This document shows, piece after piece, positions 2,250-63,656 of a stretch of 64,000 nt of DNA. The notes under the pieces were generated by a model. That model made no database searches and was not told where the DNA came from. It saw only the letters and a list, made by a program, of their open reading frames with translations. Each line of letters starts with the position of its first letter. The stretch's first letter is position 1. Where the stretch lies: positions 6,799,001-6,863,000 of the forward strand of contig NC_134028.1 of NCBI RefSeq assembly GCF_964204645.1, written 5' to 3'. Origin of the DNA: Tubulanus polymorphus (taxonomy: Eukaryota > Nemertea > Palaeonemertea > Tubulaniformes > Tubulanidae). A program made the position numbers and the translations under genes.

Positions 2250-4685
<2,436 letters not shown>

Positions 4686-17497: not shown

Positions 17498-17810
17498 CAG
17501 CGGCGGATCCAGGATTCCAGATGGAGGGGTCTAGGGGAGCAGAAATTTTTTTAAAGATAAGACAAGCGGGGACGCGTTCTGGGCACGATCACAGTACGAT
17601 TTAACTCGCAATTTGAATAGTGATTTCATAAACGATGTTGGACTGCCGTAAAAGGCGCTGGTAATTGTAGACGACGAGATAAGTTAACGCATTATCAGGG
17701 ATTTTTTCACATGTTAGCTTCGTTCCCACGAAAAGGTCAGTCCATAGAAAATTAGCTAGGACTTTAGGGGGATGCACATGTCCCATGCGCACCCCCTGGA
17801 TCCACCGCTT
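17498..17810. mobile_element. MITE with GGCGGATCCAGG ends
   Basis: The left end is CAGCGGCGGATCCAGG and the right end CCTGGATCCACCGC, an inverted pair, with TCTAT next to both ends. It interrupts the distal part of duplication unit 1, while unit 2 continues without it. No transposase. Confidence 0.55.
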
Positions 17811-19229: not shown

Positions 19230-19409
19230 GCCAAATCAACAGTCAAGGACTGGCGTACGTGCTGAGCTCGGCGTATTCGAAACAGGGTGGGCTGTGACGT
19301 CATACTCTCAAAAACACATAAATATCGGCGGAGCGATATCAGACGCCGGAGAATATCACTGACTTTTGCCGATCTAACACATTGCTGATTATCTTGTCTA
19401 TTCTTCGTC
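19230..19409 (+). promoter_or_regulatory. Globin A2 promoter and 5' leader
   Basis: Counterpart of 12135-12318. The CRE palindrome TGACGTCA (19295-19302) and the TATA-like CATAAATAT (19317-19325) are both preserved at the same spacing to the ATG. The base after the palindrome differs between copies, which leaves the 8-base core as the conserved unit. Confidence 0.6.
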
Positions 19410-21913: not shown

Positions 21914-22991
21914 ACGTTTCGATTCACAATATCTATATATGCATGTTTTGTGATATGATCTGAACAGATATAACGGAACTAGTAACCGCAGGAAAAGAAT
22001 GATTAATGGATTTTATAACATGTCTGTGGACACTTTGACACAAGAGGGGATTAATGGGGACGGACCATTCTCCATCCCTTTCAAAAATTCGAATGTGCCA
22101 TCCAAAAAGGTCAAGAAACCTATTATTGCCAGAAAACAAAACTAAATTTATCATGATTAGGGCAAGAAAGGCTAATTTTGGTCCTAATTTTTCTTCGGGA
22201 AGGCCACCAGAAGCCTATACCAATCTTCGTCCTTGCAGCCCCCACATCTGTCCTTCCTCTCAAATTAAGCTCCCGTTCCAATTTCCAGGTCCAATCCTTC
22301 GAATAATCCTATACATCCGCCCTTGATAATTATGCAACGATATATTTCGTCACAAGAGCTTATATAGTGATAATTACGTATGTCTTCCATTTTGACGCCA
22401 GTGGTTTTTCCTTTATATATTATATACTCTCGTTATCGCTTTATGAATGAACTGACTAATTATATAGTTGTAAAACCTGTTTTTATTACTACCAATAAAA
22501 GACATACACGTCTTGCTGTCTAAATTTTTCGTACTTATCGCGAAAGCGCGCGTTCTATTCATTCAATTGTTATATGGTCACAGTGGAAAAGTTCAAGAAG
22601 ATGAAGTGCTATGGAACAGTGTAGAAAACTCGTACACCCAACATCCGCATTTTTCTTCCCGTGGAAAACTTAACAAGCCAGTAAAATGCAAAATATTGCC
22701 GGTTACCTGGAAGAAAATCGCCCACTCGTCGAATTAAACATCACCTACAGTTTCAAAGCCCCAAAAAGTTGGATGCTTCATAATGATAATAAAACATATA
22801 TAAGATATATGCATTTTAAACTGTCATATTTCAATTTCACGCATTATATTGGCATTTAATCTATTAATTGTGTATGCATATAGTATCGAACAAACGTTGA
22901 AGGACTAGTCTTTGTGACGTATGTCCCAATTCACTCACCTATTATCTCGTCAACTCATTTAACCTAATGCCTTCAATATAGTATCGCTAGT

Positions 22992-24776
<1,785 letters not shown>

Positions 24777-36900: not shown

Positions 36901-39900
36901 ACTTCGACTTTCTTGATTCGAACGCAGTAAACCTTAAAAATAAGCATATCAATTCTCCTCAGTAAGTGACAATTCCTTTAACACCCATTTTTAAGCTTTT
37001 TCACAAAACTGGTCCAGACCAAAACTACTTTAAAACTAACTTTAGTTTAACTATATCATGACCCATGCCCCATAGTTGTGGGTTAGAGTTAACTCAAAGT
37101 TAAAATCAGTTCATTTTTAATGAATTAACTCTTGAGTCAAATCTTCACTTAGAACTACTGTGGAACTGGATAAAGTTTTACAAAAAAAATTTCAACCCAA
37201 ACTTCATGTTTAGTTCATATGAGGGAAACAACTTTTACGTAACACCTAATACACGGGAAAATCACTGATTAATCACTGATGAAACACTATGTGTATATGA
37301 TAAATAGAGAATCCCAAACTAAAACAAGAGCCCCAAGGGGCACAATGGCCAGCCTGTCAGATTTGCTTTTTATAAATGATGTAATCTGTGGGTTATATTT
37401 ATCAATATACACTCCCTGCTCAATATCATTTACATAGTAAAATCGTGTGTTAACACAGACAGCAGGAACGAATGTAATATAGAAATACGAAGTTATTGTA
37501 TTGTTCAACGCCCCTGGTGGCCATATACAAAAACCAATGAGCTTGAAACTCACCAAGATCATAGACCATGTCATGAGCTACAACTTTCCAATTGATTGAG
37601 TTAGCAAAATATGCATAGGTACGAATGTAATATAGAAATACTAAGTTATTGTATTGTTCAACGCCCCCTGGTGGCCATAAACAAAAACCAATGAGCTTGA
37701 AACTCATCTCGATCATAGAACATGTCATGAGCTACAACTTTCCAATTGATTATAGTACCAAAATATGCTTAAGTATCAATTATGATGTGGAAAAACTTTT
37801 TTTCCACCTACGAATGAGTACTGATGACCCCAAGATGGCAGCCAAGTGCGTCATAATTGCCTGGTCAAAAATACCCTCTCGGATATAAAAGATCCCTTTC
37901 CAAAGAATACCCATTACAAATTGCAATGAAACATGGCACACCATTAGAAAGCTACAGTACTCAGAATTCAGGCCAAAATTGACATTTTTGGGAACAAAAA
38001 AGGTTACAGTACGGCCATCTTGAGTCCGATCGACCCAATTTTTCTCATGCCGATGGGCCCTTGGGGGATACAAATATATACGAATGATCAAGGTTATTGA
38101 TAAAAGTGTCTTCAAAATTTCCCTCGAAAACTTCAAAAATATGTAAAAAGTGCTGATTTTGGCGAACAACAATGGCTGCCAGTCGGCCATCTTGAATCTG
38201 ACAGGGCCAGTTTTTGGCCTGAAGATGTGTCTAGGGTAGATACACATATAAACCAAATATCAAGACATTACCTTGAAGCGTCTTCAAAACTTTGGAACTC
38301 TCACGAACTATCTAGATGGTTATCTCTCGACCTAAATAGCTTCAAGAGCCATCTCAAAACAACTTTGTTCCATGCAGCATACCATTAACTCTCGGAAAGC
38401 GAATTGTATTTAACATTTTTTTGGCAGAATAAAATTTGATTGAATTTGCAATTCGGGCACATGGCTAATTAGCATATCAAGGTCATACACCTGATTTGGT
38501 AAAAACCTTTTTTTCGCGAACCTTGCGCAATTGTCAAGGATGAATTTTCTGTAGAGCAAATAAAAATTCCTCCCAAACACCAAATCAACTAAAGATTTCA
38601 TAGAAATCGATCTTGAAATACAATTTTAAATCTTAAAATAAAACCCGGAAGTAAAACAGTAGACGATACCGCGGGTTCGCGTGAACACCTGATTTCTGTA
38701 AACGAAATGTTGGTTGTGACAAAATTGTTCAGACGGTTTTAGGTGGTAATAAGTAGGCTACGGAAACGTAACGACCATGGTCGACTTATTCGATGAAATC
38801 AGGCCTATGTGATATCCAAATTTTGACTTTTTTATTCTCCAGACCTCCCTGATATAGAAATAAAAAATTTTGGTGGTACGAAAGTGCAATCACAGCGCCG
38901 ACGGGGTCAGAGATCGGCGGAGTGAAAATTGAGGTGGACGAACACGAAGAAGTAGGCTATTGCGCTACTTGAATCACGAAAACCCCTGGAGCGGCCCCCG
39001 ACGCTTTTCGTTGATTAAGTAATAAAAATATCATGCAATGGGTTTTCACAATCTACCGCTGGTATTTACCGGATTTTAATATCACTCCAAAATTCAAAGA
39101 AACCTCGAAATATCGAACTGGAATACTTCCGGTAGATATCCGCGGCTGCCCAACCGGGAAACTTATTAGTTTCAATAGATATTGATAGGATCCATCATCT
39201 TCACCCGTCAAGGGATTCGAACCCACTAAGCTAAAGCCATGCCAGAATCGGGTCGGGCTAATCACAGCGCTTGTAACAAACCACATTAGGCTTCTGTGGA
39301 ATTTCCCAGTAAATGGGTCAATCAGCGAACACGTAGCGAACGCGGAAGTATTGTCGCGTCTTGATACATAAAGTCATGCGCAAAAGCGCCAGTAATGAAA
39401 TCGCGATAATTCACGTGAACAGCTGCTGATATTTTCAGATAAACCAATCACAGGGAAGACACAACTTCCTGATTGGCTGATAAAAATTGAAATTTTCCCG
39501 ATTTAACTTTCGTGAAAAATGCAGAAAACATTTTTATGAGACCCTATTTCAAAATTCTGCTTGCTACGATTCCGAGAATGGATTACGCTTAAATACGTGA
39601 TTTGTTCGAATATGCCCTCACTTGGCAAGCAAAAGAGCCTTTTGTGTGGAAACCATGTCATTTAAATTTGCTCCATTTGTATAGTAATAGGCTCAGCCTA
39701 CGGCTGGCCTAATAATGAGAACGACGAAGTCCAAAAAGTTTTCTTTGTGTTTATCAATTCGACATTTCAACTTTACGGACTCCGATCTTTTTCATTCTGT
39801 TTTAGTGTGGGATTCAGTATATGCTTCCGATTGTTTTCCAGCGCCGCGTGCGTTTACGAGAAACAGTTTCGGGGACAACTTTTCGTAGATCGAACGCGTT

Positions 39901-42397
39901 TCTGTTTTCGTGTTTCCCCGCATCAGGCTTTCGATCCCTATCCATCTTATCTCCGATGGAATAAAGCGGACTAAGATTGCCGCTCGAGGACTGATTTAAC
40001 CGATACAACGGAATACGGACTGAATCGATTCAATGAATGAATTACTCACCAGGAGCAGGTTGTGGAGTTTGAGCCATCAACGGCGGAATAGTGCCGATCA
40101 CTTGCTGCATAGGATTCGACGTAATGATATTCTGATTCATCGGCTGACTGGATAAATTCTGCGACGGCATCATATTTTTGATATTCGGCGGATTTATATT
40201 CTGTAATAGGAACCGAATGAATACAGAGCAAAAATTTAAGTAGATAATAGACTATAGACAGTGGAATCGACCGCAGTAACACACTCTTAACCCTTTCAGT
40301 GCGTCTACACCGCAGTGCGGTGTATAAATCAGTGATCGATATTGCTAGTACACCGCAATGCGGTGTATTGATGTAATTAGTAATTATCTCTCGTGAAAAA
40401 TGGCAGCAGCAGTCAAACATAGTGAAATACTAGTAACTAACGATACATTGCGCCGCGGTGTAGACGCACTATAGTGGTATTCCCGTTATTCAACACACTA
40501 GGGTGGAATTTTAAAAAAATTTTCAAATTATCTCCAGCACTGTATGGTATTAATTAGTCAGCACTGAAAGGGTTAAATTCTACTATTACTACTAGAGTGA
40601 AACTATTCGGTATTTGAGAATCATTTTGAGTTACAGTTGAAAATCTAATTACCTGCGTAGGTAAAACTTGTATGCGCACGGCGTTCCATTTAAACGGCAT
40701 GTTCGGGTTATACGTTGCTTCCACTAAAACCCGGTCACCGACCTTCGGTTGAACTCCTTTCACACAACTAAAATCATCCGAAATTTGATTTTAAATCTTT
40801 TTAGCAGCGCTATGGGACAGTCACAATATCATAATTCTAAAATCTATCATTCGAAGTACTCATTTGTAGAGTAAAACCATGGATAAATTGGATCGGTGTC
40901 AGATTTTTATCCAAAAGCTTCTCAAAATCGCCAATAATCTCCCAGTCCCAAAACATCCAACTGACTTACTGTTTACAGGTTTGATACTAATTTCGTACCT
41001 TGTCTGGAAAAATACTTCTTCGTCGACGAAACCGAAGTTATCGTGCAGTTTCGTAACAATACTGGTGAAGGCGCGTTGTTTTTGAGGGGGCGTCGGTTCT
41101 CTGGTCATCATCCGTGGAGCCGGATAACTGACCGTTCCGACCTGACTCGTCGGAATGCCTAAACCGGGCTGAAATTTCAGAAAACAATTCTCTAAGTCGT
41201 ACGAAATACCAACGTTTTGAAACTAAGGAATCAAATTTTTTCGTAGTTTGACGTGTGTAACATTCAAATCTTTCCAAAGCCTAGAATTGGCCACAGAAAA
41301 ACCCATAAATTTCTAAAATTGAAGGGCCAAAAATCTATAAAGAATTTTTGTAGACAAGGAGTTAACAGCAGTACGGTAACTGGACTGTGCTCACCATTAG
41401 ATATTTACACAAAATATAGGTTGGTCTAAACCCTGTTATGCCTGATAGAAAGTTTTCAACATCAGGTTACTATAAATAGCGAACGGTTTAAATCTTTGAG
41501 ACACTTACTTGCATCTGAGCCATTTGATTGACAGCCGCTAATTGCTGTTGCGTTTGGGCGGCAGCGTATTGTTGTTGCATGGTCATCGTTGTTTGCTGGT
41601 TGGCTCCGAGGCTGTAAACGCTGGCTACACCGGGCTGTCCGATATTTAACGACGACTGCCCCGCTATACTTGTATTTGTGACCATCGGCGTATTCGATAC
41701 AGGAACTGTAATCAATAAATACACGCATCTAAATCAATGAACAAAAACGTAAAATCGATTCTTACCGTAATAAGTAAAGCGAGATGTATAGGTCTAGTGC
41801 TTAACCCTTTCAGTGCGCCTACACCACAGTGCAGTGTATAAATCAGTGATTTTGCCAGTACACCGCAATGCGGTGTATTGATGTAATTAGTAATTGGTAA
41901 TTATCCCTCTTGAAAAATGACAGCACCCGTCAAACATAGAAATATTAGAAACTAACGATACACTGCGCCGCGGTGTAGACGCATTATAGTGGTATTCCCG
42001 TTATTCAACACACTAGGGTGGAATTTTTAAAAATTTCAAATTATCTCCAGCACTATAGGGTATTAATTAGTCAGCACTGAAGAACAAACATTTTGAAGAA
42101 CAAGCTTTGGCTACAAGTGCAAAGTAACTTTATCAGGTACTCATTCACACGATGAAGCTACTATACATTGACTAGCAGACGGCAAGCTCATACTTCGAAT
42201 AAATAAATCAACCTTTTAAGTAGGCCTACTAGCCATATCGCTTTACTTATTCTACACCAGATCAGAAGTTAAAAGGTAAACATGTTTTTATGGAGAATGA
42301 AAAATCATCTTGAGATAGTTGACAAAATGACAGGGGCGGGCTTACCTGATGAAACCGACCTTGCCCACGGCGGATTTTTACCCCCGAACGATGCCAT
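27946..42397 (-). CDS. CCAR1: Cell division cycle and apoptosis regulator 1 (CCAR1)
   Basis: Nuclear coactivator (p53, Wnt and nuclear-receptor transcription, splicing links). Nineteen coding exons fit in phase to 1158 codons; human CCAR1 is about 1150. Exons, 5' to 3': 42397-42346, 41705-41509, 41168-40999, 40767-40653, 40200-40050, 36932-36638, 35827-35602, 35200-34920, 34308-34092, 33100-33011, 32557-32438, 32353-32243, 31622-31431, 31360-31013, 30881-30810, 30463-30275, 29638-29473, 28899-28654, 28184-27946. The start MASFGGKNPPWA matches the family. Domains: Gln-rich N-terminus (about 20-83); S1-like (114-176, KLHDNFGFVDEEVFF); Gly- and RS-rich (229-315, RKRSRSPRKRSRSPRPRSP); DBC1/CCAR core (327-568, YVPSDFF, DHLYSAK, CTQW); SAP (598-630, RRELEARGVNSKGLKSQL); Lys/Glu-rich (to 880); EF-hand-like (about 905-942); C-terminal coiled coil. 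Intron 9 appears to be GC-AG. Confidence 0.95.
30531..30762. mobile_element. MITE with CAGGGTGGCCACT ends in CCAR1 intron 15
   Basis: TA flanks both ends (30529-30530 and 30763-30764), and the termini are CAGGGTGGCCACT and AGTGGCCATCCCTG. TA target duplication plus CAGGG ends fits a Tc1/mariner-superfamily derivative, 232 bases with no transposase. A related element is at 60862-61142. Confidence 0.7.
35270..35457. repeat. Short direct repeat in CCAR1 intron 7
   Basis: TAGCGATTTGAAGAAACAGA followed by AACTCCACCCC at about 35270-35300 recurs as TAGCGATTTGAAGAAATAGA plus AACTCCACCCCCAGGGG at about 35417-35457. No coding content. Confidence 0.6.
35917..36204. mobile_element. piggyBac-like MITE, copy 1 (CCAR1 intron 6)
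   Basis: 288 bases flanked by TTAA at 35913-35916 and 36205-36208, with terminal inverted repeats CCCTTTCAGTGC and GCACTGAAAGGG. TTAA target sites and CCY termini are the mark of the piggyBac superfamily. Internal palindromes around ACACCGCACTGCAGTGT are shared with the other two copies. No transposase. Confidence 0.85.
36264..36442. mobile_element. TA-flanked MITE at the left end of repeat family 2
   Basis: TA at 36262-36263 and 36443-36444, with weakly matching inverted ends CAGCAGACTCC and CAGTAAACTAC (right end read in reverse). The left 50 bases (CTGAATCGGTACTGTTTATC) match 23575 and, inverted, 53400. Similarity to 23560-23755 continues to the right as far as 36600. Confidence 0.5.
37290..38300 (-). 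repeat. Large dispersed repeat in CCAR1 intron 5
   Basis: Contains two tandem copies of a roughly 150-base segment (37470-37616 and 37624-37755) with TATTGTATTGTTCAACGCCC, CCATGTCATGAGCTACAAC or close variants. A further part (38160-38290) has GGCCATCTTGAATCTGACAG and CAAGACATTACCTTGAAGCG. The reverse complement of both parts occurs at 49340-49990 in the furin-like gene. Its frames are open but match nothing known. Confidence 0.6.
38326..38388 (+). pseudogene. Remnant of a non-LTR retrotransposon C-terminus
   Basis: Translates as LDLNSFKSHLKTTLFHAAYH followed by a stop, which resembles the very C-terminal end of CR1/jockey-type reverse transcriptases (an LxxFKxxLKTxLF pattern). Only these 20 codons are recognisable. 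Identification rests on one short motif. Confidence 0.4.
39825..39930. repeat. Copy of the CCAGCG-CGTGCGTTTACGAGAAA repeat
   Basis: Contains GTTTTCCAGCGCCGCGTGCG, then TTTACGAGAAACAGTTTC. The repeats at 56868-57180 in the spacer after the furin-like gene carry closely similar segments. Inside CCAR1 intron 5. Confidence 0.5.
40291..40572. mobile_element. piggyBac-like MITE, copy 2 (CCAR1 intron 4)
   Basis: 282 bases flanked by TTAA at 40287-40290 and 40573-40576, with CCCTTTCAGTGC and GCACTGAAAGGG ends. It is in the opposite orientation to copy 1: the ACACCGCAGTGCGGTGT palindrome side is now on the left. Confidence 0.85.
41805..42080. mobile_element. piggyBac-like MITE, copy 3, right end damaged (CCAR1 intron 1)
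   Basis: Left TTAA at 41801-41804 followed by CCCTTTCAGTGCGCC; the interior closely matches copy 2. At the right, CAGCACTGAA is followed directly by GAACAAACA, so the last AGGG and the TTAA are lost. Confidence 0.8.
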
Positions 42398-44020
42398 CCT
42401 CGACGGTGCGATTGATCTATCTTCTAATCAGATGCGAACATAGAACCTATAGCGTTAAAAGTAAGAAGTGACCTGTCAACGATATTGTATGGCTTGTGAT
42501 TGGCTAATTCGCCTGGCGCATGAGAGTTGTTGAAGTAAGAGATGGACAGACAGAGAAAATTGAGTGAATAGATAGAGCCCCATTTGAACCCTGGTAGTGT
42601 CTTTAAGGCGCTTGAATTCTGCCGAAAGGTTTTAACAGCATACAGCAGCGTGTGTTATCACAATGGCGCTAATCCTAAATTTACCATAAAATGAATCCTA
42701 ACCAACCCAAATTCACCCTCTCCCCCACAATTCTCCTGCTATCCTAATCATCAACCTAACCCTAATTAACACCCTATTTTATCATTCATCATCCTGGTAA
42801 CCAGCCTCAATCAACAGCGTCCAGTTCCACAGTTAAGATTGAACTCATTGAAAATGAATTGATTGTAACTCAAGAGTTAACACTGATTATTCTGCTGGTA
42901 GTGGTACAGAATAAAATTGTCATTTATCTGGCTAAATATATCTATGTGAAATGTGATTAACCGAATCCGTCTATTATATATTCACTGGCACTGCCTCTAA
43001 ATTTGAGTCTAATTTGAATTTGATTGCCCTCTGCCTGGCCATTGATTGATTGAGATTGAGAATCTGGGTCGCATCCAGTATCACAAAAATTGAAAATATA
43101 CAAACTTGGGCAGCAGAGACTTCTTGTATGATTCATAGAGAAAAGCTCAGGTCTATAGCGAAATATATTAGATACAAATTAAACCGAACCTTCCATCAAT
43201 AATAAACGATATTTAAGGCTGGAATTCTCGTGCGCGAAAACGCAAAATTATTACAAAACCCGGAAATGATTTTTTTTCCGATCGGGACACGACGGAACAT
43301 TTTCATTTTTCGACAAATGAATCATAATTTTGAAAACTTGACAAAAAAACTATCTCTAATTTTTCTACGACTCTTTCAGCTAAGAATGGGGATTATTTTG
43401 ATCGTCGGATATCGAATGAATTTGATTATTTTTATTTCGATTATATACATTTGTTCCGCGGATGAACTGTTTGTTTGAGAGTGGTGACTCAAAATTTCGA
43501 ATAAATGTATTTTTAAGCTGGATTTCTGTCGTTGACAATCGGATATCAGATTAGAAACCTTGCCTATAATTTAATCGAGTTACCAAGAGGTAAGTTCGAA
43601 ATTTGTTATGTCGTTTAAACATGCAGGGGTAGGGCTAAACGGCTCGTTTTCCTTGAACGCCCACCTGTTTTAGTCTGAGTAAACTTCTCTCGGCGTTATG
43701 ACATTCCTCACGAGGCTTACACAAGCTTTTTTATAGTGACAAATCGAAACCATTTCATTAGGGTCTATTGGGAGAGTTCACATCATTTAGAAAAAAAAAT
43801 GACTCGCTAAAAGAACCTTTTAACAATATTAGTGTCTTGTTGATTTGGTCCAAGAAGGAGGTAGCCTATGATGTGCAAGGGGGGTCCTGTGTCGTGAAAA
43901 AACAGGGTGAAAACTGTCAATTTCAGTCATGGACTACTGAGATGACATTGTGGATTGTTTTAATTAAGACATGTATTACTGTAGCCTATTTGGAATTATG
44001 TTTGTTTATTCTATTTTCAG
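42398..44020. other. Divergent spacer between CCAR1 and the furin-like gene
   Basis: The two genes point away from each other, so this 1.6 kb should hold both promoters and the 5' UTR exon of the furin-like gene, whose first coding exon begins after an acceptor AG at 44019-44020. I see no clear TATA box or CpG-rich core. The frame at 43230-43478 is low-complexity and unlike any family I know. Confidence 0.5.
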
Positions 44021-44024
44021 GAAG

Positions 44025-47000
44025 ATGAAGTCTTCCGGGTTTGTCCTCGGAAGGTCGCTTTTGTGTTGCGTAATTTTCATATTATTAGGTTCCACGCCCT
44101 CGTTGTGCAACCGAGAACTTAAAACGTAAGTTGACAAAAGGCTCAATGAATATATGTTTCCATTAAGGTCGCCTGTCACTAATAATAAATTGGAATTAAT
44201 TAACCTGTAATCAGCTTTGTTCATCTGAAATAGTGTTATGACTCGTTCTGAAAAAATGTTTTTATTTCAGCCAACACCGAAGTAAAAGAGCAATTGAAGT
44301 ATCTGATCCTATGTGGTCACAACAATGGTACCTGGTAAGTCGGAGGGTTCGAACTATGGCGGTTGTTAGAAGATTTGGGCATCATTTCAAAATATGGACA
44401 TGTTTCCAAATTTACGAGATTTGAGGCAAAAGTTTAGGAAAATGAAGCAAAATTTTCGCCCCAATTAATCTATAAGCTGTAAGATTGCTTATCCTATGCA
44501 TCTGATTTTCAAAACCCTACAAAAGTTCCACTTACAAGAAAAAAATTCCATTTTCATGAAATTTTAAGCTACCTTTATGATCACGCTGTTGCAACGGTTT
44601 GTTCATGAATTCAATTTTCCTTGCGAAAAGCAGCAACGATTTGCCAATTGCTGGTGCCAATGGCTCAAGGAGCCTCTTGAGATGAAATGCTGAGGATCAG
44701 ATCTTATATAATTTAATCGGTCGAGGGTCAGGGATAATCGAGAAAACATCAGGAAATTTTGAATTATCTGATCTACACGAATCCTGTTAATGACAACGAA
44801 CAGCAACCGCAAGGTGCTGAAATCAACGTAAATAAGCAATTTTTGTAACCAAGTTTATTTATTAATGTTTGCAGTATAGAGACTCTGGTAGTAGTTCCGG
44901 TGCTGATATGAATTCAATGGTAGCCTGGGATTACGCCACCGGCGCGGGTGTCACGATCGGCGTTGTGGATGGCGGCGTTTTAGAGAATTCCGAAGATATT
45001 CGAGTGGTAAGTAATTAAGATTTGAATAAATTACAAAATCGGCCGTGCTTTCCATATGTTCAGAGATATGTTACATCTGTGAACATATTCAAGTGCAGAC
45101 CCGACATACACTGAAAGGACTTGGCAGGTTTCTACGTCCCAACCTGCCTGTCCGATACTTTTGCATTGGTTATAAACATTTTTGCCACAAATAGAGCCAC
45201 GCATACCGCATAAAATGAATGCAGTTAGAAAAAAAATGGAAACGATGAACAGACCCATCAGGGCCTCAAACATCTAATGCTTCAACTTTGAGTAATTTGT
45301 TAGACCATGTTCCGCTAATCAGGAGAGACCTGGTTGTTCCAATTTTCCACTTTCTTCATGTGGTGGTAGAGCATTCTCCACATATGCTCCCAGACTGTGA
45401 AGAATAACCTTCTTGCCAATAAACAGTTTTATTCCGTGCTAGCTACGTATAGTTTCTAGCGGAGCGCATTTGAACTTAAATAAGGAGCCTTGCACTATAT
45501 AAGTGACAATTTATTATTATCATAATTTAGTCGTACGAATATTTTGATGTTTCGTTATTTCAGAATACCGAGTTGACATTGGATTTACATCCCGGTCAGC
45601 CGATCGATGCGGACAGTACTGGAACAGAAGCTGCAGGCGTCGCTGCTGCGCTGAGGAATGCTAAATGCGGCGTCGGCATCGCTTATGAAGCTCAGATAGC
45701 GAGTAAGTATTCATCAATACAACCCGAACAGTATTTGTCGGTAATCCCTTAAAAACTGGCGAGTATTTTTCAGCCTGTGAATGATTTTGGACCACGCAAA
45801 CTTAATAACTCAGTAGATATAATGGTATACATATTTTCTGAAAGCCGTTTTCACGAGCTTTGGAATGATACCAAGTTTATTGCCTTTGTTGCGACATTGC
45901 TTCTGACGATCTTCTCAACTTGAGAAATCTGACTAATAAGACGCATAGTTTCACTACCAATTGTACGATGAATCGCTTTGCTAGACATCGCTGGGCTTCA
46001 CAAACTACAGTCCAACATCCTTAATCAGTTTAATAGAGATTGTTTTGATCCAAAAATCCAGACTAACTGCACCGTGAATAATACCTGATGCTATTTACTG
46101 TCCGCCTTTACATAAAAGTTTGTAGAATATGATGTTTTATTTGGATTTCTTGTAAAGCCTATTCGTATCGGTCCCATTAAACGTGTACGTATCTTTTTCG
46201 TCGCAACAGATATCCGGTTGTTTTCCAAGGCAGCGAATGTCATCAGAGATGACTTGAGAGCCAAGGCGCTCACTCATCGACTCGATAAAATCGACATCTA
46301 TTTGAATAATTGGTCGGCGAATGAAGATGCGGGTGATAATTCGCGAAAACTGTTCCGAATGTCGCCGCAATCCAGTCAGGCATTGTATAAAGGAATTCGA
46401 GAGGTATTTATATTTTTTGGGATGGCATGGTTTGAGTTTAAATTTCGGTTTCTGGTTTCACAGTTGCGAAGGATATCAAAAATAGTTCGTACTCCAACGT
46501 CAGGGGTGGATCCAGCCTCTTATCCTGAATATCGCTTTAAGACATTATCACAAGCCCTTAAGGGGAGTGTGGGGTTAGAATTTTATCGCCTCCAGATGCA
46601 TTCTGACCGTTTGTTAAACTGACGTTTAACTTAATATTCCATACATCGATCAACTTCGTTCATCCAAAAAGCAAGGTTAGTTAGATGAGTCGAATGATAA
46701 AAGAACACAGAAAAAGGAATTAATTACATATATTTTGAAAATATCATTCTTGAAAAATCCTAGAGAACTGCCAAGCAGTAAGTAGTAGGCTGGAAGTTGA
46801 TCTATGATAATTCGGAACTGGCCAAGGTTTGCTTAAATACATACTTTTTCAGTGACTTTGATAATTAAAGTTGTTACTGAGTAATGGGTTGTAAATGTGG
46901 ACCCACGTGTCAATTCAATGTTCTCTGGAATAAGAATTAAGAGCTAAGATCATTTCGCACTAGGAGTAGCCACATGATGCAGTTAAGCGTCTTAACTCGT

Positions 47001-50000
47001 ATGTGGCCAACTGGGACAAAAACAGAGTTACTTTCTGAGTCCCTGTCTTTTCTGGTCCTTTAGTTTTTCCAAGTTACTCAAGGTGTATTGTAATAAAGTA
47101 TCAATATGAACTGTAATGAAGTTTCAATCCGAACTGATCATGGTCTCTATCTTGCTTTCGACAGGGACGCGGCGGTAAAGGAGCCATATATATCTGGGCG
47201 TCCGGTAAAGGCGGCCTGCTGTCGGGCGATAGCTGTTCGTACGACGAATACGTCAATAACATTTACACGATCGCCGTCGCCGGAATTAAAGAGGATAATC
47301 GGCGTCTGCTGCGCGGAGAAAGGTGTTCGGCTATTATTGTATCGGCTTATAGCGCCGATTCGGGTGAGACCGGAACGCTAGACGCCACTATGCAGCAACA
47401 ATCATTGCGTAATATCGTAAGTATTTTTTCAGTCGATTGCTGAGAGCCGCTTTGAATTCCGAGAGCATGTTAGGGTAGCTACTAGGTTATTTCGAGGATG
47501 TACCAGTGAGTAGTTAATTTGTGGGAGAAGCCTCTGCTAAGAATTTACCGTGTTTTGGTCGTGGGTCTTTCTTCAATTCCAAAATATAAACAGTTACTTG
47601 TCCATGGAACCAACACAGCATGAAATGTCAGATTGATGCTTTGCTAGTGTACATTCTATAATCTTGTATTGGTATATTTGATGATGAAATTTTTAATATG
47701 GCAAAAAATATGGAACCAAGACACATCATCTTTAGCAGGGATTCATTTGAATTGCGTCACTGGACTTGACCATAAACCTGTCATAGTGGTAGTCATTTGA
47801 ACCTGATAATGGCACCACAAGACTCTGTCACGGTACAAAATCCTGCCCTATTGCTAAAGAAATCCAGGGATTCAAACCCGGTGGAATCCTTGGTATGAAA
47901 TGCCCGCCATGTAGTTTTGTCCTTCTAGCAGGGAATCAGATGTCATTGAGTATTTGCCACGGTGGTATAGTTCAAGATACAGTCATGGTTGATATAGGTT
48001 TTGTGGCAAATTTAGCAACTTAAGACAAACCTTGGTACTTAAGACGGCTTAAGTCGCGACTGTGCAACACTGTACCTTCACCCTATTTCAAGTTGTCGAA
48101 TGATAATCATTTCAGGTGTCGCCGTCCGGTAAGAGTATTTCTGAATGTGATACGGATTTCGCCGAATCAGGTGCCGCAGCTTCGATGGTCGCCGGTGCAG
48201 CTGCCTTAGCGTTACAAGTCAAGTAAGTTTTCACATGCGTATCGTCAAGAAACTTTCGGTAGCGGTAGTGAAATATCATCGATATTAAAGCCCCAACAGC
48301 ATCACAACTGAAACGAAATTTATCGTTGAAAATGACATATTATTATCATTGGATCATAGAGAAAGTGACTGTGACTTTGTATGTTCAATCAAGGAGGCCA
48401 TACACATAAAATCATGCCAACCTAAACTAAACTAAACTTTTTTTCGCTAGCTGTGCCTCATATACCCTTGATGTATTCTAAAATGCTTTACTGTCACGCC
48501 AATTGATCTCTGTAAATCAGGTATTCAGATGCTGGTAGTTGTTTATTTCTGTGGGCTTGTATACCCTTCTGGGCATTGTTTATTTCGTACATCATACCTG
48601 AGCAAAATTGATCGTGATATATTATTTTCAAGGTCAGGATGAAATAGGTTATAGCAGTTATTCTGTAGTGGAAATAAATTAAAGTCGGTACTTGTATATG
48701 CGCTCGTGTTCGTATGTATTTAACATTGTCGTTGCGTCCAATTTCAGTCCAAAATTAACTTGGAGAGACATGCAACATCTCATCATACGAACGTCAAATC
48801 CGTACATCGGATTCCGAACCAAACAAAATCGCGACGAATTCATCACAAATGCCGCTAATTTCAAAGGTGAATAAATTTTCGTCGAAACTTTATGTGGAAA
48901 ATCCGTTTTTTCGCTAGGTTTTTTGTTTAAAAAAAGAATTATGATACAATTCGAATTAGATGAACCATGATGCTCTTTCTCTGCAGTATCGCCGACGTTC
49001 GGCTTTGGATTGTTGGACATCGGAAAAATGGTTAAACTGGCGCGAAAATGGCCGGAACTTCCAAAAAATATGACCTGCATCATACCCGGACGTTTAATCG
49101 CTAAGTATGTTCCAGAAATTAGTTAAGAGTTCAGTATAGAATCTAATTGTTTTATATCATGAGTCGTAGCCTGGTTACCCTTCGGTCCAACAGCCTCCTC
49201 TAAAACACGGTTTGATTATTTGCGATCTTTTTAGTAAATGTTCTTTCAATTTGATTAAGATGGGTTTCAGGCCGGTTTTAAGTGTTCTTGCAGATCTGAT
49301 CTGACCGGGAAATCAAGAAAAATCAGTGAATCGCAGATTAATTTTTAGCCCACTTGGGACTTTAGTCCCAGCGGGCTATTGCGTTCACTTTCCGTCCGTC
49401 CGTTCGTCCGTCCGTAGACGGAATCCAGTTATTTTGGGAAGTTTTGAAGACGCTTCAAGGTAATGTCTTGATATTTGGTTTTTTACATGTATCTACCCTA
49501 GACAAAATCTTCAGCCCAAAAACTGGCCCTATCAGAATCAAGATGGCCGACTGGCAGCCATTGTTGTTCGCCAAAATCAGCACTTTTTACACATTTTCGA
49601 AGTTTACGAGGGAAATTTTGAAGACGATTTGATCGTAAACTTCGAAAATGTGTAAAAAGTGCTGATTGGTACCTAGGCATATTTTGTTACCATGATCAAT
49701 TACAAAGTTGTAGTTCATGACATGTTCTATGAATATGGTGAGTTACAAGGTTATTGGGTTTTGAATATGGTCACCAGGGGGCGTTGAATAGTAGATTAAC
49801 TTAGTATTTCCACATTAAATTAGTAACGAGGCATTTTTTGTTATCACAATCAATTACAAAATCATAGCTGCTGACATGTTTTATGATTGTATTGAGTTTC
49901 AAGGTCATTGGTTTTTGTATATGGTCACCAGAGGGCGTTGAATATTGAAATTGTTAGATTGTTGAGCATTTGAAACCACTTCCCAAGTGGGCATGGTGTC

Positions 50001-53000
50001 CCTGGACCCCTAGTTTGCCTGGCAGAGCAAATTGGGGAGTTCAGACCCTTTTCTAGAAAATCAGAAAAGTCTGGGAATTCGAATTTTTGGTGGTTGTTAT
50101 TCTTGCTAGTGACGAATGGCAGAAAGAAACTCTTCAAAAGAAAAAGCCCCCGCTAAGGATATCTTGTTTAAATCAGGGAATTTTTGGTCAATGGTTATCG
50201 GGGAATTTTGGATTCCATGATCTGTAAGAACTGGGTCCCTGCGTTTCTAAGGATATCTTGTTAAAATCGGGGAATTTTTGGTCGATGAAATGTCGGTAAT
50301 TTTGGATTCTGTGACCTCTGTAAGATACGGGTTGCCGCGTTCTACGTTACTTAAGCCAGATTATCTTTACGTATTTTCAGCAAGAATCAGATTCCGCAGT
50401 ATTTCAACGCCGAAGTGAATCGTTACTGCAAAATCGAGTATATCGAACACGTCGAGGTGCGATTCCACTTGACGTACAGCAACAAGCGCGGCCGAGTGAG
50501 CGCGCGTCTGGAGTCGCCGGCGCGCACGGAGAGCATCATTCTGAACGGACGCGAACCCGACATCACGCTGGAGGAGCTGCGATGGCAGACAGTGACGTAC
50601 GCGTTCTGGGGCGAACAGCCTCAAGGACTGTGGAGATTGCACATCGACGACGCGTCGCCGTCTGACCTCAACCGCGGGTCCGGTATGTTTCGTTTCAGAA
50701 ATAAGTATGATCTCATTTCTACAGTTGTCAGTCATTTCAACTGTTAAAATGTGATAATATGCTACAGTAAACCTTGCCTTACGCTGACAAACTGGGACCG
50801 TCAGAGTCTGTCTGAGCTAATTAAGGAGTTAAGGATAGGAAGATATGTTAAGGAGTTCGTTTTTTTCCGAGTTAGTTAGAAGTCTGAGTTGGCCATGTCA
50901 GAGTGAGGCCAGGTTTTCTGTACTAATGATATAGGCCCTACAAGAAGTTGAGTTATCAAAGTCTATTTCTGAAATTATAGTTTCTAGTTCGGGACGCAGC
51001 CATATTAAATCCACTACCTTGAAATCGGGTCCAGAGTTTTGAGTTTTAATGGACCCCAGTTCCATTAGATTGAATCCACAGGGTGAACTTCGATTATCTC
51101 GATGACCAAAGTTCACCTAGAAGCTGGTTCATATTGATTCGTTTAAGACCGATGCAGATTTTAACCGCAGCTCAGATTGAAATGAAACCTACTGCTGTTA
51201 CTGCGTATCCTGTAGTCTACTCAAATCGTTACCTCATTCGTGGACCATGGTGCAGGGTCTGTTTGACTGTCGAACTGTGTGTTCAGTTAACTTAGATTAG
51301 CTTAAGTTGACCGTCGTCCAGAGTCACGGACGAAAACTGGGTTCAGGAAGTTTTCGTGGAACAATTTACGGAATACTCAATGAATATAAATCTATGAAGC
51401 TGCTTTTGAATTTTCAGGGACATTATTCGATTATACGCTGATCATTCACGGCATGAATGAACGAACGCTTCCCGAATACGAAGGTCCCCACGATGACCGT
51501 AAGTAGTAGTCCTCGTGTTTAACACTAGATGTTATTCCGATTCTGAACGTCATTTGTGTCGAATGAGAAATGTTTTCAATTGCCCTGGCAGAATTTTCGA
51601 GAGGACAAAAATGGCGTTTTTTCTTTCAAATCTGTAATTGTCATAATCCGGTTCAGGTTCATATTTGTAACGGTTTCAAACACGTGGTACTTTAAGCCTC
51701 GCACATCTCAATATTAGATCTACATTCTTAATATTCTCTGACTGGGCAATACCCCCGATCGGCCTCCCTGACATAAGCAGCCGGCTGGACAATACTGCCA
51801 ATATTGACGTCTTGATAGTTTAGAGTCGTCATTCTGGAAAATGAAATCAGGTGATATTCATCTGTCATTTGTACGATATGAAAAGTTTACTTAAGACTTT
51901 TAACGTCAATATTGGCTGCGTTGTCCTAGAGCCGTCCTAGAAACTGTGCGCTTCTGATGTATTAGCTTAGAAATTCTGATTCTTGTTCTACTATCGTTTA
52001 TTTCCTCGTTTCAAATCTCAATTTCAAAAACTTGACTGTCTCTAGCTTTTCCCCTTGTTTAATGCCAACTATGCACAAAAACTGTCTTTTGAGTTACTTT
52101 TAGTTTAGCCTTTTCTATCACGTTTAATGTGGGCAAGAGTTTTGTAGGGTTTCAAATTGTCACGATTGTTTTTTACAACGTCTCTTATTGTCATTAATAC
52201 TAACTTTTACTAATTAATGATTAATTAATCAATTTAATGATCATATCTGAATGATTGTGTAGACGAGCAGCGACCGCCTTGCGGCTGACCGGAGAGAGAA
52301 AAAAAAACGAGAAAACCTCGGTGCTTCCAACTGTTCCTTCTTCTATCCGTATTCTGACTATTTCGGTTAGGTTTTTCCACCGAACCTCCTGGGTTTTAAT
52401 AGTAATAACCATTTCTGAGTAATGTATATTCAATTACTGACAATCGACTAAATTAGATAAATCGTTTACCCAAAAGTTGTTATTAGGGTTTTTAGATTTA
52501 CAACTGGTTTGAATATTTCATTCGTGAATTATTTGAATTAGATGAAAACGGTAAATGTAAATTCCTGCAATTGATGAAAGACTAAAAAGTTTATTTGAAA
52601 TACTAGAAATATTTCAGGTGGTTCCTGTACCACCCTGATTCAGTCTAAAAATGATATGTCGAATGAATATGCAGTAGATATGAAATAATATAACGTGCAG
52701 TAGTCTATCGTATTCATTTTTACATGAAACAACTTCAAATATTATCAAATATAGATTTTTCTGCCAGGGTAAAATTTCATTTCTTTATCAATCAGTTTTG
52801 TTGTCGTAATTTGTCGTGATTTTTTTTGGGATTTTAATCAATATTTATGGTGTGGATTCTATTTTACCTTTTTTCACCGGCATGTACGTATAGGCCTATA
52901 CCAAAGGGTTCGGGGGCATGAGGATATGAATAAGAATGAAGAAAAATTAAATTGACTTCTCTGAGATTAAATCTGAGACAATAGCAGCGTTTTAGAATTC

Positions 53001-53889
53001 TCCAGGCTGAACAAATTGATAACCTTGATTCTCATTTCTGCTGGTTGGTTTCGATTTTGACTTATTGGTTTTTGTTTTTTGTGGTGTGAACTGGGCAAAA
53101 TTTCCTCACATCATGCCGATGTCAAGATGTTAAGACGAAATTTTTATTTAGATTATGTAAAATTCTAATTTATCGTCCCCGGCCAGCTTGAGACAAAGAT
53201 CAAATGTATTGAAATTTTTTTTTGGCAGTGGTCTGCTATTCGAAATTTGGATTTTTTCAGGGTCCCGTCGACCCCTTGATTACTCATAAACTCCTTCTAA
53301 ATTGAAAATACTTGTAGGTGCATGAAACTTTAATATGTACAAGATAAAAAATTACTTACAAAACCACTGAATTAACGGTTTACTGAGATAAACAGTACCG
53401 ATTCAGGAACAGTCTACTGTAATTGGAATATGGAAGTGAAATTTGAAATGTTCTACTTTACAACTCCTTGAAATATCCAAGAATGACCAACCTGAAAGGC
53501 CTCTGTTTCGGACATTGTCGCTCAAATAATCAATATTTTTGCAACAAATTAACTTTTATTGACCGAGCACTTGGAAAACAAAAAAAGATGAAATACTAAA
53601 TCATACCCCCACACCTCCCGGAGATATTCTGAAATCGATCGAAGCACCGTGTGTTTTCTTATTCTTTTTTTTTCTCTCGTTAATAGTCGTCTACAAGTTC
53701 CGTCTGCCGTGGTGGGCCATACTGATCATCGTGGTCAGCATCGTGTTGATCGTCGTAGTCGGTCTAGTAATCTGGCGGTGTCGCGTCGTTCGTAGAAACC
53801 TCCTGCGTAAAGAAGAGCTTAAAAAGGCGGCCGTAACGAATAAAGTCTACCTGCACGATGAAATGGAGATCACCGAGAAACATATATAG
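44025..53889 (+). CDS. Furin/kexin-like pseudo-convertase, membrane-anchored, isoform a
   Basis: Proprotein-convertase fold, predicted not to be an active protease. Twelve exons: 44025-44125, 44271-44334, 44875-45006, 45564-45702, 46210-46403, 47165-47416, 48116-48222, 48748-48866, 48987-49104, 50381-50682, 51418-51498, 53687-53889; 603 codons. Order: signal peptide (about 1-28), RSKR at 37-40, then SDPMWSQQWYL. Subtilisin-like domain: Asp kept at 87 (VVDGG); catalytic His position is Thr118 (DSTGTEAAG); oxyanion Asn is Lys225 (WASGKGG); Ser position is Gly313 (ESGAAASMVAG). LTWRDMQHLIIRTS then matches furin closely. P domain about 400-535 with RGR where furin has RGD. Transmembrane helix about 545-568 and a 40-residue tail. 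The usual 80-residue prodomain is absent: intron 1 is 145 bases. Frames stay open throughout with clean splice sites, so this is an expressed-looking gene, not a decayed one. Confidence 0.88.
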
Positions 53890-56356
53890 GGTTTTTTTGC
53901 GGTTGTTTTACGGTTTTTTGTGCCATATTGCTCAATGTCTCTGTATCGAGAAATTCTCTCGCAACATCCTCCTCTGACAGGGTTTTGAAACCAGATGGCA
54001 TCGAGACTCGCTACAGTACAAAACCCTGCCACACTAGACCGAGTGCGCAGCTACATGCACAGCTTAGATGATGTCATGATTAGCCAATCAAAAATCCTGT
54101 TTTATTTTAGCCCGGGTTTTCCCAGTTATAAAGCTTTTTCCGTGGTATTTGCCTCAGCGATTATACAACGAGCAGTCTGATTGCTGCTGCAACTTTTCTT
54201 GCGGTAAATCTTGCAAGCTTTCGTGCCGTGGCTGAGGCTAGCGATGCCAAAAAGGTTTGGATCCCTGCCGAAGGAGGATGGTTCGCGTTAGTAGAGACCA
54301 ACAGGGTTCATAGCACTCAGTAATCTTTGAATTGAGCAGGGTTTCAAAAGTCTTTTGTTTTTTGCCCAAAATTTAACGAGTGATATCTGATTTGCTCGAA
54401 AAAAATTACGTTGAGAGTTATCAAATTTTGTCTTCTTTCATCTAGTTGTCACGAGTAAAAAAAAGCCAGTGATAAGGACGATATTTCAGAGCTATTTTCA
54501 GCATTTTGTTTCTAGAAATACTAATTCAATTTATTTGATGTGAACAGAAATATGAAATATGTTACAGAGGGTCTTACCCCCCCCCCCTTGATAACTGATT
54601 GATTTTGTTTCATATTTCAATGAAAAAATATTCAATTTGTTGATACTGATGGCGCTTTTCTGAGGTTGGCTGCCCCCGATATTTAGATTCGATTTACCGT
54701 TTTCAATGGTAGGTGAGAGGCTATGAACCCTGTTTCAAATGGATAGAAATAATCAAAGAAATCAATTGATGAAGAATATCAAAGTATGGTGCAATATCTG
54801 GTCTATTTGAGAAGAGAGAGAATTTATAACCGTTCGGTAAAATGTGTGGGTTAATGAAATCCTCAGGTTTATTGAACGCTGTGTCAACTGCTGAAACTGC
54901 TATCATTTCAAACTAAAAGATTGTTCTCATTTTTAGTGGCCTGTATTTTGTAAACTAGATATTAAGACAGATTAATATATACCTTTGAATACTCGGGAAA
55001 GTTCTATGCGAAGCCCGTGGCAAACTTTAATGCGTTTTGCCAGCTCAGTTAAATTGTTAGGTGAAACGGCAAAAATGGCAAAATATGCTGTGCCGTGATT
55101 TCATGAGTCACGGGATTAAAAAACCAAATCGGCTTCCATATATATACCAAGTAGGTAAAGACATTCTGTGAGCTTCAAAATTGGCTTATTCTTTATTAAT
55201 GAAAGGAATTAGGAAAGGGGTTAGGAAAGAATTTAAACAAAAATACGTATAACTTAAATCAGGGTGTGTGAGTATATAGGCAATGGGGTGAACAATGGGG
55301 TATATCTGTAATCATATGGGTTTAATCAAATTGTATATTTGTAATTACAAAATGAACAAGATCGATTAGCTAGGGATAGTTGTTAGATTTTATGGGTTTA
55401 ATAAAGGTTAATTGATAGCTTCTATCATCTTTCTTCCCAGTCGAGTCCGTCAGTTACGTTGGTCCTATAGGCCTAATCGTCTAGGATCTTTTAAACCAGT
55501 CCTAAGATTTTATAGATTGGTTCTTGAAAAACCAAATAGAATATGTCTTTGACTGGTTTTAATTGCAACTCTTGATTGTGGAATTTTACGGATTAAGCTC
55601 AAATAGTTTTATTTATGTTGTTAAATGAGTTTTCATTTTATGGATTTTATATATATGTATGTGTAAATCAAAAGACTCATAAATTTATATAATATATTTT
55701 GCAGTGAATGATAGGAAATCATATTCGTATTTATAAGTATGACGAAATGAAATTTGTGTTTGATTTGAAATTCTACGGAATTCTTGCCTATTGCTAAACT
55801 AGCTTTAATATAACTGTGCTTGTTGGTATATCGAGTTGTCCGCGGTCCTGTATGCGGTCCTGTCAAATTTGCTAAGACTGGACACTATAGACTGGACTAG
55901 TTCTGACCTTGGTTCTAAAAACCAATAATTCTGTATAACCAATATTACGAATGAAGACCTGCCTTATGATTTTAACCTGTTATTAATGTTTTACTGTTAG
56001 CAGCCGAGGTTTACCGTAGGTTCATTTTAAGCGATGTTCTTCGATGTTTTTATGTATTTTTAGTACAATTAGGAGGCACGTTAGCCTGGTGGGCGATTCT
56101 GCTCATCGTGTTAGTGATCATCGGGCTGATCGTCGGCGTTCTCGTTTTTCTACGCGTGCGCCACCTGCGCAAACAGAACAACTACGGCGAACGTACGCCG
56201 AAAAAATACAAGCAGAACAACGTTTACGGCGATACGACCGAACCGACCGAAATGCACAATTTGAAAAACGGAGAACCAACTTATGTACACCTTAAGGGAG
56301 AACCGACTTATGCTCACGTTAAGGGAGAACCTACCTATGCTCATGTTAAGGCTTAA
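44025..56356 (+). CDS. Furin/kexin-like pseudo-convertase, isoform b (alternative last exon)
   Basis: Same eleven first exons as isoform a, then 56064-56356 in place of 53687-53889; 633 codons. The acceptor TTTTTAG gives the same phase, so exon 11 can join either. Both last exons encode Trp-Trp-Ala-Ile-Leu at the same distance from the splice (residues 545-549), then a hydrophobic helix. This tail is longer: basic, then NNVYGDTTEPTEMHNLKN, and three copies of a GEPTYxHxK repeat. Isoform a instead ends with a Lys/Glu-rich tail. The second exon looks like an old duplicate of the first. Use of each exon must be shown by transcripts. Confidence 0.78.
49340..49990 (+). repeat. Large dispersed repeat in intron 9 of the furin-like gene
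   Basis: Begins near TTTTAGCCCACTTGGGAC, then GTCCGTCCGTTCGTCCGTCC. GAAGACGCTTCAAGGTAATG and AAAATCAGCACTTTTTACAC follow; they recur inverted in CCAR1 intron 5. The segment with GACATGTTCTATGA and CACCAGGGGGCGTTGAATA occurs twice (49660-49800 and 49830-49950), as it does in the CCAR1 copy. It ends near ACTTCCCAAGTGGGCATGG, which pairs with the start, suggesting terminal inverted repeats. Confidence 0.6.
50152..50343 (+). repeat. Tandem duplication of about 95 bases before exon 10
   Basis: Two adjacent diverged copies, each starting CTAAGGATATCTTGTT and ending with GGGTCCCTGCGTT or GGGTTGCCGCGTT; both contain GGGGAATTTTTGGTC or a close variant. The second copy ends 37 bases before the exon 10 acceptor. 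Confidence 0.65.
50765..50920. mobile_element. TA-flanked MITE in intron 10 of the furin-like gene
   Basis: TA at 50763-50764 and 50921-50922. The left end is CAGTAAACCTTGCCTTACGC; the right end read in reverse is CAGAAAACCTGGCCTCACTC. Tc1/mariner-type ends with no transposase, 156 bases. Confidence 0.65.
51499..53686. other. Long intron 11 of the furin-like gene
   Basis: No further phase-compatible transmembrane exon is seen. The only recognised content is an inverted copy of repeat family 2 near 53265-53425. Confidence 0.5.
53963..54283. mobile_element. MITE family 1, copy after isoform a exon
   Basis: The ends are AACATCCTCCTCTGACAGGG and GGATCCCTGCCGAAGGAGGA, an inverted pair. The interior matches 4275-4536 (GATGTCATGATTAGCCAATC, TTTTAGCCCGGGTTTT). 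It lies 74 bases after the isoform a stop, within its probable 3' UTR or the intron skipped by isoform b. Confidence 0.65.
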
Positions 56357-62500: not shown

Positions 62501-63656
62501 TACACGACGACCGGGAATTATCAACCAGTTACCGATTGCAGTCCCATGTTTGCGTTGGATTGTGAAATGGTACGAAACCATGTCTTCTTTTGATATCGTG
62601 TTAAAACAAACTTACAGTCAAAACCAGCTTAATCCGGATCGGCTTACCGTCATCTGGATTTTGGTCTAATTGCAATCCATTTGTACATGGATATACAAGA
62701 AAATGACTTAATCCGGATTTCCCATAAACTGGATTAATTTTGCCAAATGATCCGAATTAAGGGGATTCTACTGTATAGATATATGATGCATCAGCTCTCG
62801 AATTCGAAAATGTTTCAAAATCGGTTTTTGTAGGTGATGACTACTGCAAAAACGAATGAACTAGCGCGAGTGTCCCTCATCTCAGAGGACGGAATTTGCA
62901 TTTACGACAGTTTAGTCAAACCATACAACAAGGTTATTAATTATCTTACAAAGTAAGTCATCTGGAAGCATTCGAAAAGCATGGCGTGTGGGTATGCAGA
63001 GCTCAATTTAAATTATCTATTTATTTTATTATTGTTTTTACTTTATTTCCTGCGTAAATTAAAAGAGTATAATCAAGTACATCATGTTTATAAAATTGAA
63101 TATGATAATATGATCATTATAATTGATAAAATGTTATGATATATCAGTGGGACAACATAAAGAAGCAAGGCTTGTGACGTATGCTGACCAAAAAAATATA
63201 TATATTTACAGGTATAGTGGTATTACGAAGAAAATGATGGATCCAGTACAAACTCGTTTAAGAGATGCACAACGAACCATACAGAAATTGTTACCACCAG
63301 ACGCGATATTGGTAGGACAATCTATGGCCAATGATCTGAAAGCTTTAAAGGTAAAGTGTTTCGTTTAATATCTTAGTGCGGAAAAACTAGCACATCGTAG
63401 TAGAATTATTATTAGACTATTTAAAACTGAAAAATTAAGGCTAACAAAAAATTTATTCCCATACAAATTGAAAATAGATGAAAAGTTTGCCAATTAGCAG
63501 TTTTTCCTATATCACGAGTTATGTGACAAGATGTCGATATCGTTGTATTTTGTAGATGTATCATCCGTATGTCATTGATACGAGCGTTATCTATAACCAA
63601 AGCGGTCAACGAACTAGAAAAACTGGCCTTGCTCGCCTCACTCAAATTTTCTTTGG
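59501..63656 (+). CDS. DEDDh RNA exonuclease, REXO5-like, 5' part of gene
   Basis: 3'-5' RNA exonuclease family (REXO5/NEF-sp, RNA end trimming in nucleus or nucleolus). Ten exons in phase: 59501-59653, 59777-59887, 60092-60219, 60367-60496, 60674-60782, 61369-61617, 62469-62569, 62834-62952, 63212-63350, 63556-63656; the last ends in phase 2, so the gene runs off the window. A basic N-terminus (KKRKIEAF) is followed by SHVGFLVIDGVSIKDF, typical of REXO proteins. Exo motif I is FALDCEM (Asp324, Glu326); exo II is LVGQSMANDLKAL (Asp408); YSGITKKMMDP and MYHPYVIDTS are family signatures. Exo III (His, Asp) lies beyond the edge. The start ATG is the one giving MAEDKRD; in-frame ATGs lie 10 and 75 bases upstream. 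REXO1 is the main alternative. Confidence 0.82.
60862..61142. mobile_element. MITE with CAGGATGGCCACT ends in the exonuclease gene
   Basis: The ends CAGGATGACCACTTATG and AAAGTGGCCATCCTG form inverted repeats; the interior is rich in CAGGGAA motifs. Same type as 30531-30762. The left TA is not preserved. Confidence 0.55.
62615..62773. mobile_element. TA-flanked MITE in the exonuclease gene
   Basis: TA at 62613-62614 and 62774-62775, with ends CAGTCAAAACCAGCTTAATC and, reversed, CAGTAGAATCCCCTTAATTC. Internal repeats of TTAATCCGGAT. Pogo/Tc1-like, 159 bases, in the intron between exo motif I and the next exon. Confidence 0.7.

Follow-up and report, generated by a model that had tools for sequence, protein, structure and literature searches.

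Two candidate prodomain-less pseudo-convertases of the furin type in the nemertean Tubulanus polymorphus

We found that a stretch of 64,000 nucleotides of the Tubulanus polymorphus genome (hereafter the window) carries a furin-like gene in which three of the four active-site residues are replaced. As far as sequence goes, homology of the furin type together with the absence of essential catalytic residues makes a strong case that the gene encodes a pseudoenzyme. Its product is predicted to be a type I membrane protein with an ectodomain composed of an S8 and a P domain, lacking the residues for peptide hydrolysis, and the convertase shape appears to have been preserved for some task other than cutting. 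A second gene of this kind lies at C6:1.84 Mb. Our preferred reading, to which we assign a probability of roughly 60%, is that both genes encode prodomain-less, membrane-anchored pseudo-convertases whose role is non-enzymatic binding or escort.

The window gene was modelled by hand by joining exons at GT-AG borders. The resulting 12 exons, all on the plus strand (44025-53889), make up a single open frame of 603 amino acids with GT-AG at 11 of 11 introns, in line with the open frame, 12 in-phase exons and clean splice sites that an earlier note on this DNA had described; of the span proposed there (44025..56356) the start was confirmed, while the end turned out to be that of an alternative last exon, the 12-exon model stopping at 53889. 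The encoded protein comprises, in this order, a signal peptide-like start, RSKR, Peptidase_S8, P domain, transmembrane helix and a short tail. Exon 1 (44025..44125) harbors the start codon, a hydrophobic stretch resembling a signal peptide (by hydropathy only) and a short linker; it is followed by an intron of 145 bp and by exon 2 (44271..44334), in which alignment to furin revealed the convertase-type site RSKR (residues 37-40, counterpart of furin RTKR104-107, at 44278..44289 as derived from the exon model) and SDPMWSQQWYL, the start of the mature domain. According to the gene model, exon 8 (48748..48866) encodes LTWRDMQHL, exon 9 (48987..49104) encodes FGFGLLDIGKMVKLA, exon 10 (50381..50682) the core of the P domain, as supported also by Pfam, exon 11 (51418..51498) the end of the P domain, and exon 12a (53687..53889), the last exon, the transmembrane helix, a tail of ~37 residues and the stop codon. 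Pfam detected Peptidase_S8 at residues 78-377 (E 3.2e-21) and P_proprotein at residues 430-504 (E 2.4e-11), both above cut-off, and the top PDB match of the protein was furin (E 6.6e-66; 37% identity over 319 aligned residues of the catalytic domain); an NCBIfam search returned a mycosin match only, below cut-off. The furin signatures reported before are indeed present, QQWYL and LTWRDMQHL being intact and WASGxGG being intact with Lys at x. A splice acceptor (TTTTCAG, followed by GAAG) positioned 4 bases 5' of the ATG suggests that an additional 5'UTR exon may lie upstream. The hand-built model was kept over a furin-guided spliced alignment of the window, which was rejected because, with a low intron penalty, it created spurious small exons around that of the Ser site and, with a high one, omitted the beginning of exon 7.

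Other features of the window were recorded alongside. Several globin-like exons, by eye from at least two gene copies, are found at 13326-24218 on the plus strand; the joined globin piece matched Pfam Globin (E 2e-14), and its best PDB entry was nerve hemoglobin, with hemoglobin III/II also matching, all of which we take to be mollusc proteins. A long run of TA dinucleotides at ~23140-23340 probably lies within a globin intron. A CCAR1/DBC1-like gene occupies ~28000-43000 on the minus strand (extent by eye; DBC1 domain E 1e-25, LAIKA domain E 7e-9), and a plus-strand ORF at 63123-63368 looks by eye like an exon of a REXO-type exonuclease, with no Pfam match at E 0.01.

Alignment of the window protein with furin placed D153, H194, N295 and S368 of furin at D87, T118, K225 and G313, and thus agrees at all four sites with the earlier note, which had listed Asp87 as kept and His, Asn and Ser as replaced by Thr118, Lys225 and Gly313. 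D87, the sole retained catalytic residue of the four, is encoded by exon 3 (44875..45006; codon 44968-44970), T118 by exon 4 (45564..45702; ACT, 45618-45620), K225 by exon 6 (47165..47416; AAA, 47207-47209), which also encodes the Ca2 ligands D232 and E262, and G313 by exon 7 (48116..48222; GGT, 48170-48172). Exon 5 (46210..46403) covers the region of the substrate cleft, where the alignments show replacement of furin E236, S253, G255 and P256 and retention of W254. The complete Asp/His/Ser triad and the oxyanion Asn of an active convertase are not found in this gene. The oxyanion Asn of convertases is Asp in PC2, and by the chemistry of serine proteases the retained Asp is useless without His, Ser and the oxyanion residue. 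Exons that could restore His, Asn or Ser were not seen in the window: four catalytic-motif patterns searched in six frames over its whole length gave zero matches, and tblastn of furin against it gave no further exon. In 14 distant prokaryotic S8 relatives, found in genome contigs with the window/furin alignment and used as control only, Asp and His were kept in every one, as were Asn and Ser in all of the 12 that have letters at these positions; two scans of viral contigs yielded no relatives of the window gene. The catalytic sites of the window gene were kept in 1 of 4 cases as compared with 22 of 36 for the other deeply conserved columns, a difference that is not significant (Fisher p 0.20).

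A search of the genome (267.8 Mb, 77 contigs) for P domains at E 0.01 revealed nine matches at eight loci. Besides the window gene and the gene at C6:1.84 Mb, six paralogues were modelled with a spliced aligner, in which small splice errors are possible; in these spliced alignments Asp, His and Ser were kept in six of six and Asn in five of six. The sixth active gene, PC2-like and located at C1:24.724-24.736 Mb, carries Asp in the oxyanion position, which we take to be as in PC2. The second dead gene (C6:1.841-1.847 Mb) carries Ala, Lys, Asp and Ala at the positions of furin D153, H194, N295 and S368. Its model consists of 12 open exons encoding 610 residues (least secure is the first coding exon, which was selected by an ATG-to-donor search), and it predicts a signal peptide-like start, RVKR ~10 residues on, and a transmembrane helix with a tail; Pfam detected the S8 domain (E 1.8e-20) and the P domain (E 4.4e-10). 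A frame break, named earlier, for orthologues, as a sign against a maintained pseudo-convertase, was sought in this paralogue and none was found. Single-protein searches of the genome, judged by their best candidates only, disclosed no third pseudo-convertase beyond the eight P-domain loci; a weak match at C4:6944913 (E 0.015) contained three stops. A genome search with PF00082 misses the window gene, since its exons match too weakly one by one. On C8 a lone exon (16491772-16491861, minus strand), with a stretch of N nearby, encodes a signal peptide and the first half of a convertase prodomain; tblastn with furin over 17 kb around it gave no other convertase exon, and it may be an orphan, part of a ninth gene or an assembly join. 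Upstream of the second dead gene (L060, ~3680-4550), a 69-base unit is repeated in tandem, in at least 10 copies by eye, and this array is open in two frames.

Between the hydrophobic stretch and RSKR the window gene has ~10 residues only. A prodomain HMM, made from six human prodomains, found no prodomain in 44.4 kb of upstream sequence in the window (searched on the plus strand, best E 7.6), on both strands of the whole window (best E 1.2) or in the 12.5 kb upstream of the second dead gene (best E 11), and as a positive control the same HMM matched six of six active loci (best E 4e-11 to 2e-3). A genome search with PF16470 gave at least one match at each of the six active loci and no match on contig C4, which carries the window gene, or near C6:1.84 Mb. 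Thus, by both searches, no prodomain like that of an active convertase is detectable for the window gene, a feature on which the earlier note was silent and which the rebuilt model and the HMM searches have added. The RxKR at the start of the mature domain, a trait of the S8B family, is present as RSKR37-40, and both dead genes keep such a site ~10 residues past the signal peptide-like stretch. Given that the furin prodomain is described as an inhibitor (PMC2662429) and as a folding helper (PMC11394684), its loss together with that of the triad points to a protein that would no longer need to be held inactive. Other fold features have been retained in the main, as judged by the cysteines and calcium sites of the S8B family.

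Five of the six cysteines that, with their pairing, we take to form the furin disulphides are found in the aligned column of the window gene, the sixth being matched by Cys425 five residues on; in the second dead gene all six are in column. Based on the ligands given in PMC12649860, the window gene retains the side-chain ligands of Ca1 (Asp115, Asp162 and Asn208), keeps Ca2 as E/D/E and Ca3 in one of three positions, and the second dead gene keeps the Ca1 ligands and has lost those of Ca2.

The main tree (ten sequences, 463 columns, bacterial outgroup) grouped the two dead genes as sisters with SH-aLRT/UFBoot support of 99.6/100. The grouping was recovered in four of five re-analyses, namely when 74 active-site columns were removed (98.6/99), when the bacterial outgroup was dropped in addition to these columns (99.6/100), when the catalytic domain was used by itself (99.5/100), and when LG+C20 was applied with the 74 columns excluded (96.7/96, with some implausible branch lengths); in the fifth, a tree of the P domain only, the two were not grouped. 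Their mutual identity, 35%, is no higher than their identity to furin-type genes (33-36%). Their branches are long, longer than those of the furin-like genes, so that long-branch attraction is a reduced but possible cause of the grouping. A character independent of substitution rate is the intron at furin position 193.2, beside the codon of the catalytic His, which is present in five of six active genes and absent from both dead genes, including exon 4 of the window gene as seen by alignment and intron comparison; the sixth active gene lacks it too, and its intron layout differs. Many intron positions of the window gene are shared with the furin-like gene of this genome (C5:7.13 Mb). Together, the trees, the fact that no prodomain is detectable for either gene and the shared absence of the 193.2 intron indicate common descent of the two dead genes, which the P domain alone does not. 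The most economical history would be a single loss of prodomain and catalysis followed by duplication; the different residues at each catalytic site make independent later losses possible.

The window gene has two candidate last exons. Exon 12b (56064..56356, plus strand), recognized by its in-phase acceptor and its similarity to exon 12a, joins exon 11 in phase and is a duplicate of 12a, with which it is identical at 79.6% of 49 bases of DNA (E 7e-9) and, at the protein level, at 41.7% of 60 residues; searched against the genome at E 0.01, it had no match except exon 12a. In the 603-residue form ending with 12a, the transmembrane helix (~543-566) is followed by a short tail with no YxxPhi motif, whereas exon 12b encodes a transmembrane helix and a tail with three (YVHL, YAHV and YAHV). 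An AATAAA at 55400, between the two exons, fits two separate transcript ends, as predicted from the sequence.

To estimate constraint, the two dead genes were compared over 443 codons, giving pN of 0.475 and pS of 0.799, a crude pairwise measure in which pS is saturated; the active pairs C5_7.13/C5_0.18, C5_7.13/C5_24.8 and C5_24.8/C1_24.7 gave pN of 0.267-0.367 and pS of 0.765-0.822. Given that synonymous sites are saturated while 35% of the residues are still identical, amino acids would have been constrained since the split, although less than in active genes; the comparison suggests constraint between the two dead genes, part of which could predate the loss of catalysis. By this one crude measure the window gene appears to be kept by selection, and the claim of the earlier note, a pseudo-convertase under selection, is supported by the open frame, the retained cysteines and Ca1 ligands, the paralogue of the same architecture, its grouping with the window gene, and pN being lower than pS. 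A decaying pseudogene, or a relaxed duplicate caught before its frame breaks, would go with branches longer than those of the furin-like genes, but we consider it very unlikely: no stop or frame break is present although the protein is only 31-36% identical to human furin and to the active paralogues; of 500 replicates evolved neutrally in a simulation at 0.05 substitutions per site, 2.4% remained free of stops, and none of the 500 was free of both stops and indels; exon GC is 0.50 as compared with 0.37 in the introns; and constraint is seen against the second dead gene.

Other explanations accept a maintained protein and differ in what it does. A dead cleft that still holds polybasic propeptides or substrates could compete with active convertases. 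Among the cleft residues, whose pocket roles are presumed, the S1 acids are partly kept in the window gene (D258 is E184, D306 is kept as D237), Y308 is kept, and furin D264 corresponds to Asp by pairwise alignment but to Phe by multiple alignment. However, D154, N192 and E236 are replaced in both dead genes (G/N, D/A and R/L), S253, G255 and P256 are replaced in the window gene, and in the second gene S253 is replaced, G255 and P256 are gapped and D306 is also lost. Such a decoy is therefore improbable, because several of the presumed S2 and S4 contacts are gone from both genes. The erosion of the acidic cleft, as well as two alternative exons for transmembrane helix and tail, one of them with three YxxPhi repeats, would suit a receptor or adhesion protein at the cell surface that has lost all ties to convertases and in which the S8/P fold serves as a scaffold and the tails signal. 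We regard this as conceivable but rather doubtful, as both genes keep RxKR ~10 residues past the signal peptide-like stretch, which suggests that processing by convertases still matters. Hardest to credit is a protein that is still a protease by means of a rearranged active site, for example with Ser312, which adjoins the position of Ser368 one residue before it, as nucleophile; there is no His at the catalytic position, Lys occupies the oxyanion position, no prodomain is detectable, and in the second gene both Ser and Asp of the triad are replaced by Ala.

We thus return to membrane-anchored binding or escort proteins. The signal peptide would direct the window protein into the secretory pathway, where it would fold without a prodomain helper; an active convertase may clip its short N-terminal stub in trans at RxKR, which we infer because both dead genes keep the site though neither has a detectable prodomain. 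The mature, membrane-anchored protein would then bind or escort a client of the secretory pathway, and the choice of last exon could set its trafficking or signalling, given that 12b would supply three tyrosine-based sorting or phosphotyrosine motifs and 12a none. The escort role is modelled on two precedents: inactive furin boosts secretion of MMP-28 no less than the active enzyme and is co-precipitated with MMP-28 (PMC2989691), and the lowering of LDL receptors by PCSK9 requires no catalysis (PMC13276728). In general terms, a binding, decoy or chaperone role is what we infer. A wider picture, which we put forward tentatively and would not yet bet on, is a hitherto undescribed animal family of prodomain-less membrane pseudo-convertases of single origin followed by duplication, in which active convertases would cut the RxKR stub, the family would escort or restrain them or their clients, and tails would be swapped by alternative last exons.

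By descent the window gene belongs to the S8B family, having an S8 domain followed by a P domain according to Pfam and matching furin at E 6.6e-66. With furin (PCSK3) it shares both domains, the transmembrane anchor, RxKR, most of the disulphide cysteines and the Ca1 ligands; it differs from furin in that other residues occupy the His, Asn and Ser positions, its model includes neither a prodomain nor a Cys-rich domain, the cleft is eroded and the last exons are alternative. The iRhoms are rhomboid relatives whose fold is unrelated to that of convertases. They resemble the proposed window protein in being membrane pseudoproteases with regulatory roles (PMC6451368), and they serve here as a model of an escort protein. 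PCSK9 resembles it as a convertase-family protein whose known action needs no catalysis (PMC13276728 and PMC8553125), but there the triad and prodomain are intact, the protein autocleaves and is secreted, and a Cys/His-rich C-terminal domain stands in place of the P domain that the window gene has. Pseudo-subtilases have already been described. CspC of Clostridioides difficile is reported to have a degenerate triad of D105, T170 and G485 (PMC6636752) and has thus arrived at Asp, Thr and Gly just as the window gene has with D87, T118 and G313; CspC, however, is bacterial and soluble, consists of prodomain, subtilase domain and jelly roll, and retains its prodomain uncleaved, whereas no prodomain was found in the window gene, and the likeness is taken to be convergent rather than a sign of membership. 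PIMMS2 of Plasmodium (PMC5520436) shares with the window gene a signal peptide, a degenerate subtilisin-like domain and a transmembrane segment, but no P domain is described for it, and P. berghei PIMMS2 keeps D155, H222 and S414 while lacking the HGT and GTS motifs. Neither CspC nor PIMMS2, as far as the passages cited describe them, is of the furin type with a P domain. Among the matches listed for the open-licence PMC literature, there was no furin-type pseudo-convertase and none from molluscs or other spiralians.

Pseudoproteases have precedents in other protease families as well as among the subtilases of bacteria and parasites. The present genes, if the wider picture is true, would stand to furin as the iRhoms stand to rhomboid proteases. 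They also call for caution, in that not every gene with an S8 and a P domain in such genomes is a furin-like protease. A two-gene family without catalysis and prodomain would open two questions to testing, namely which roles other than cutting the convertase fold can serve, and how an S8 domain reaches its fold when the prodomain is gone.
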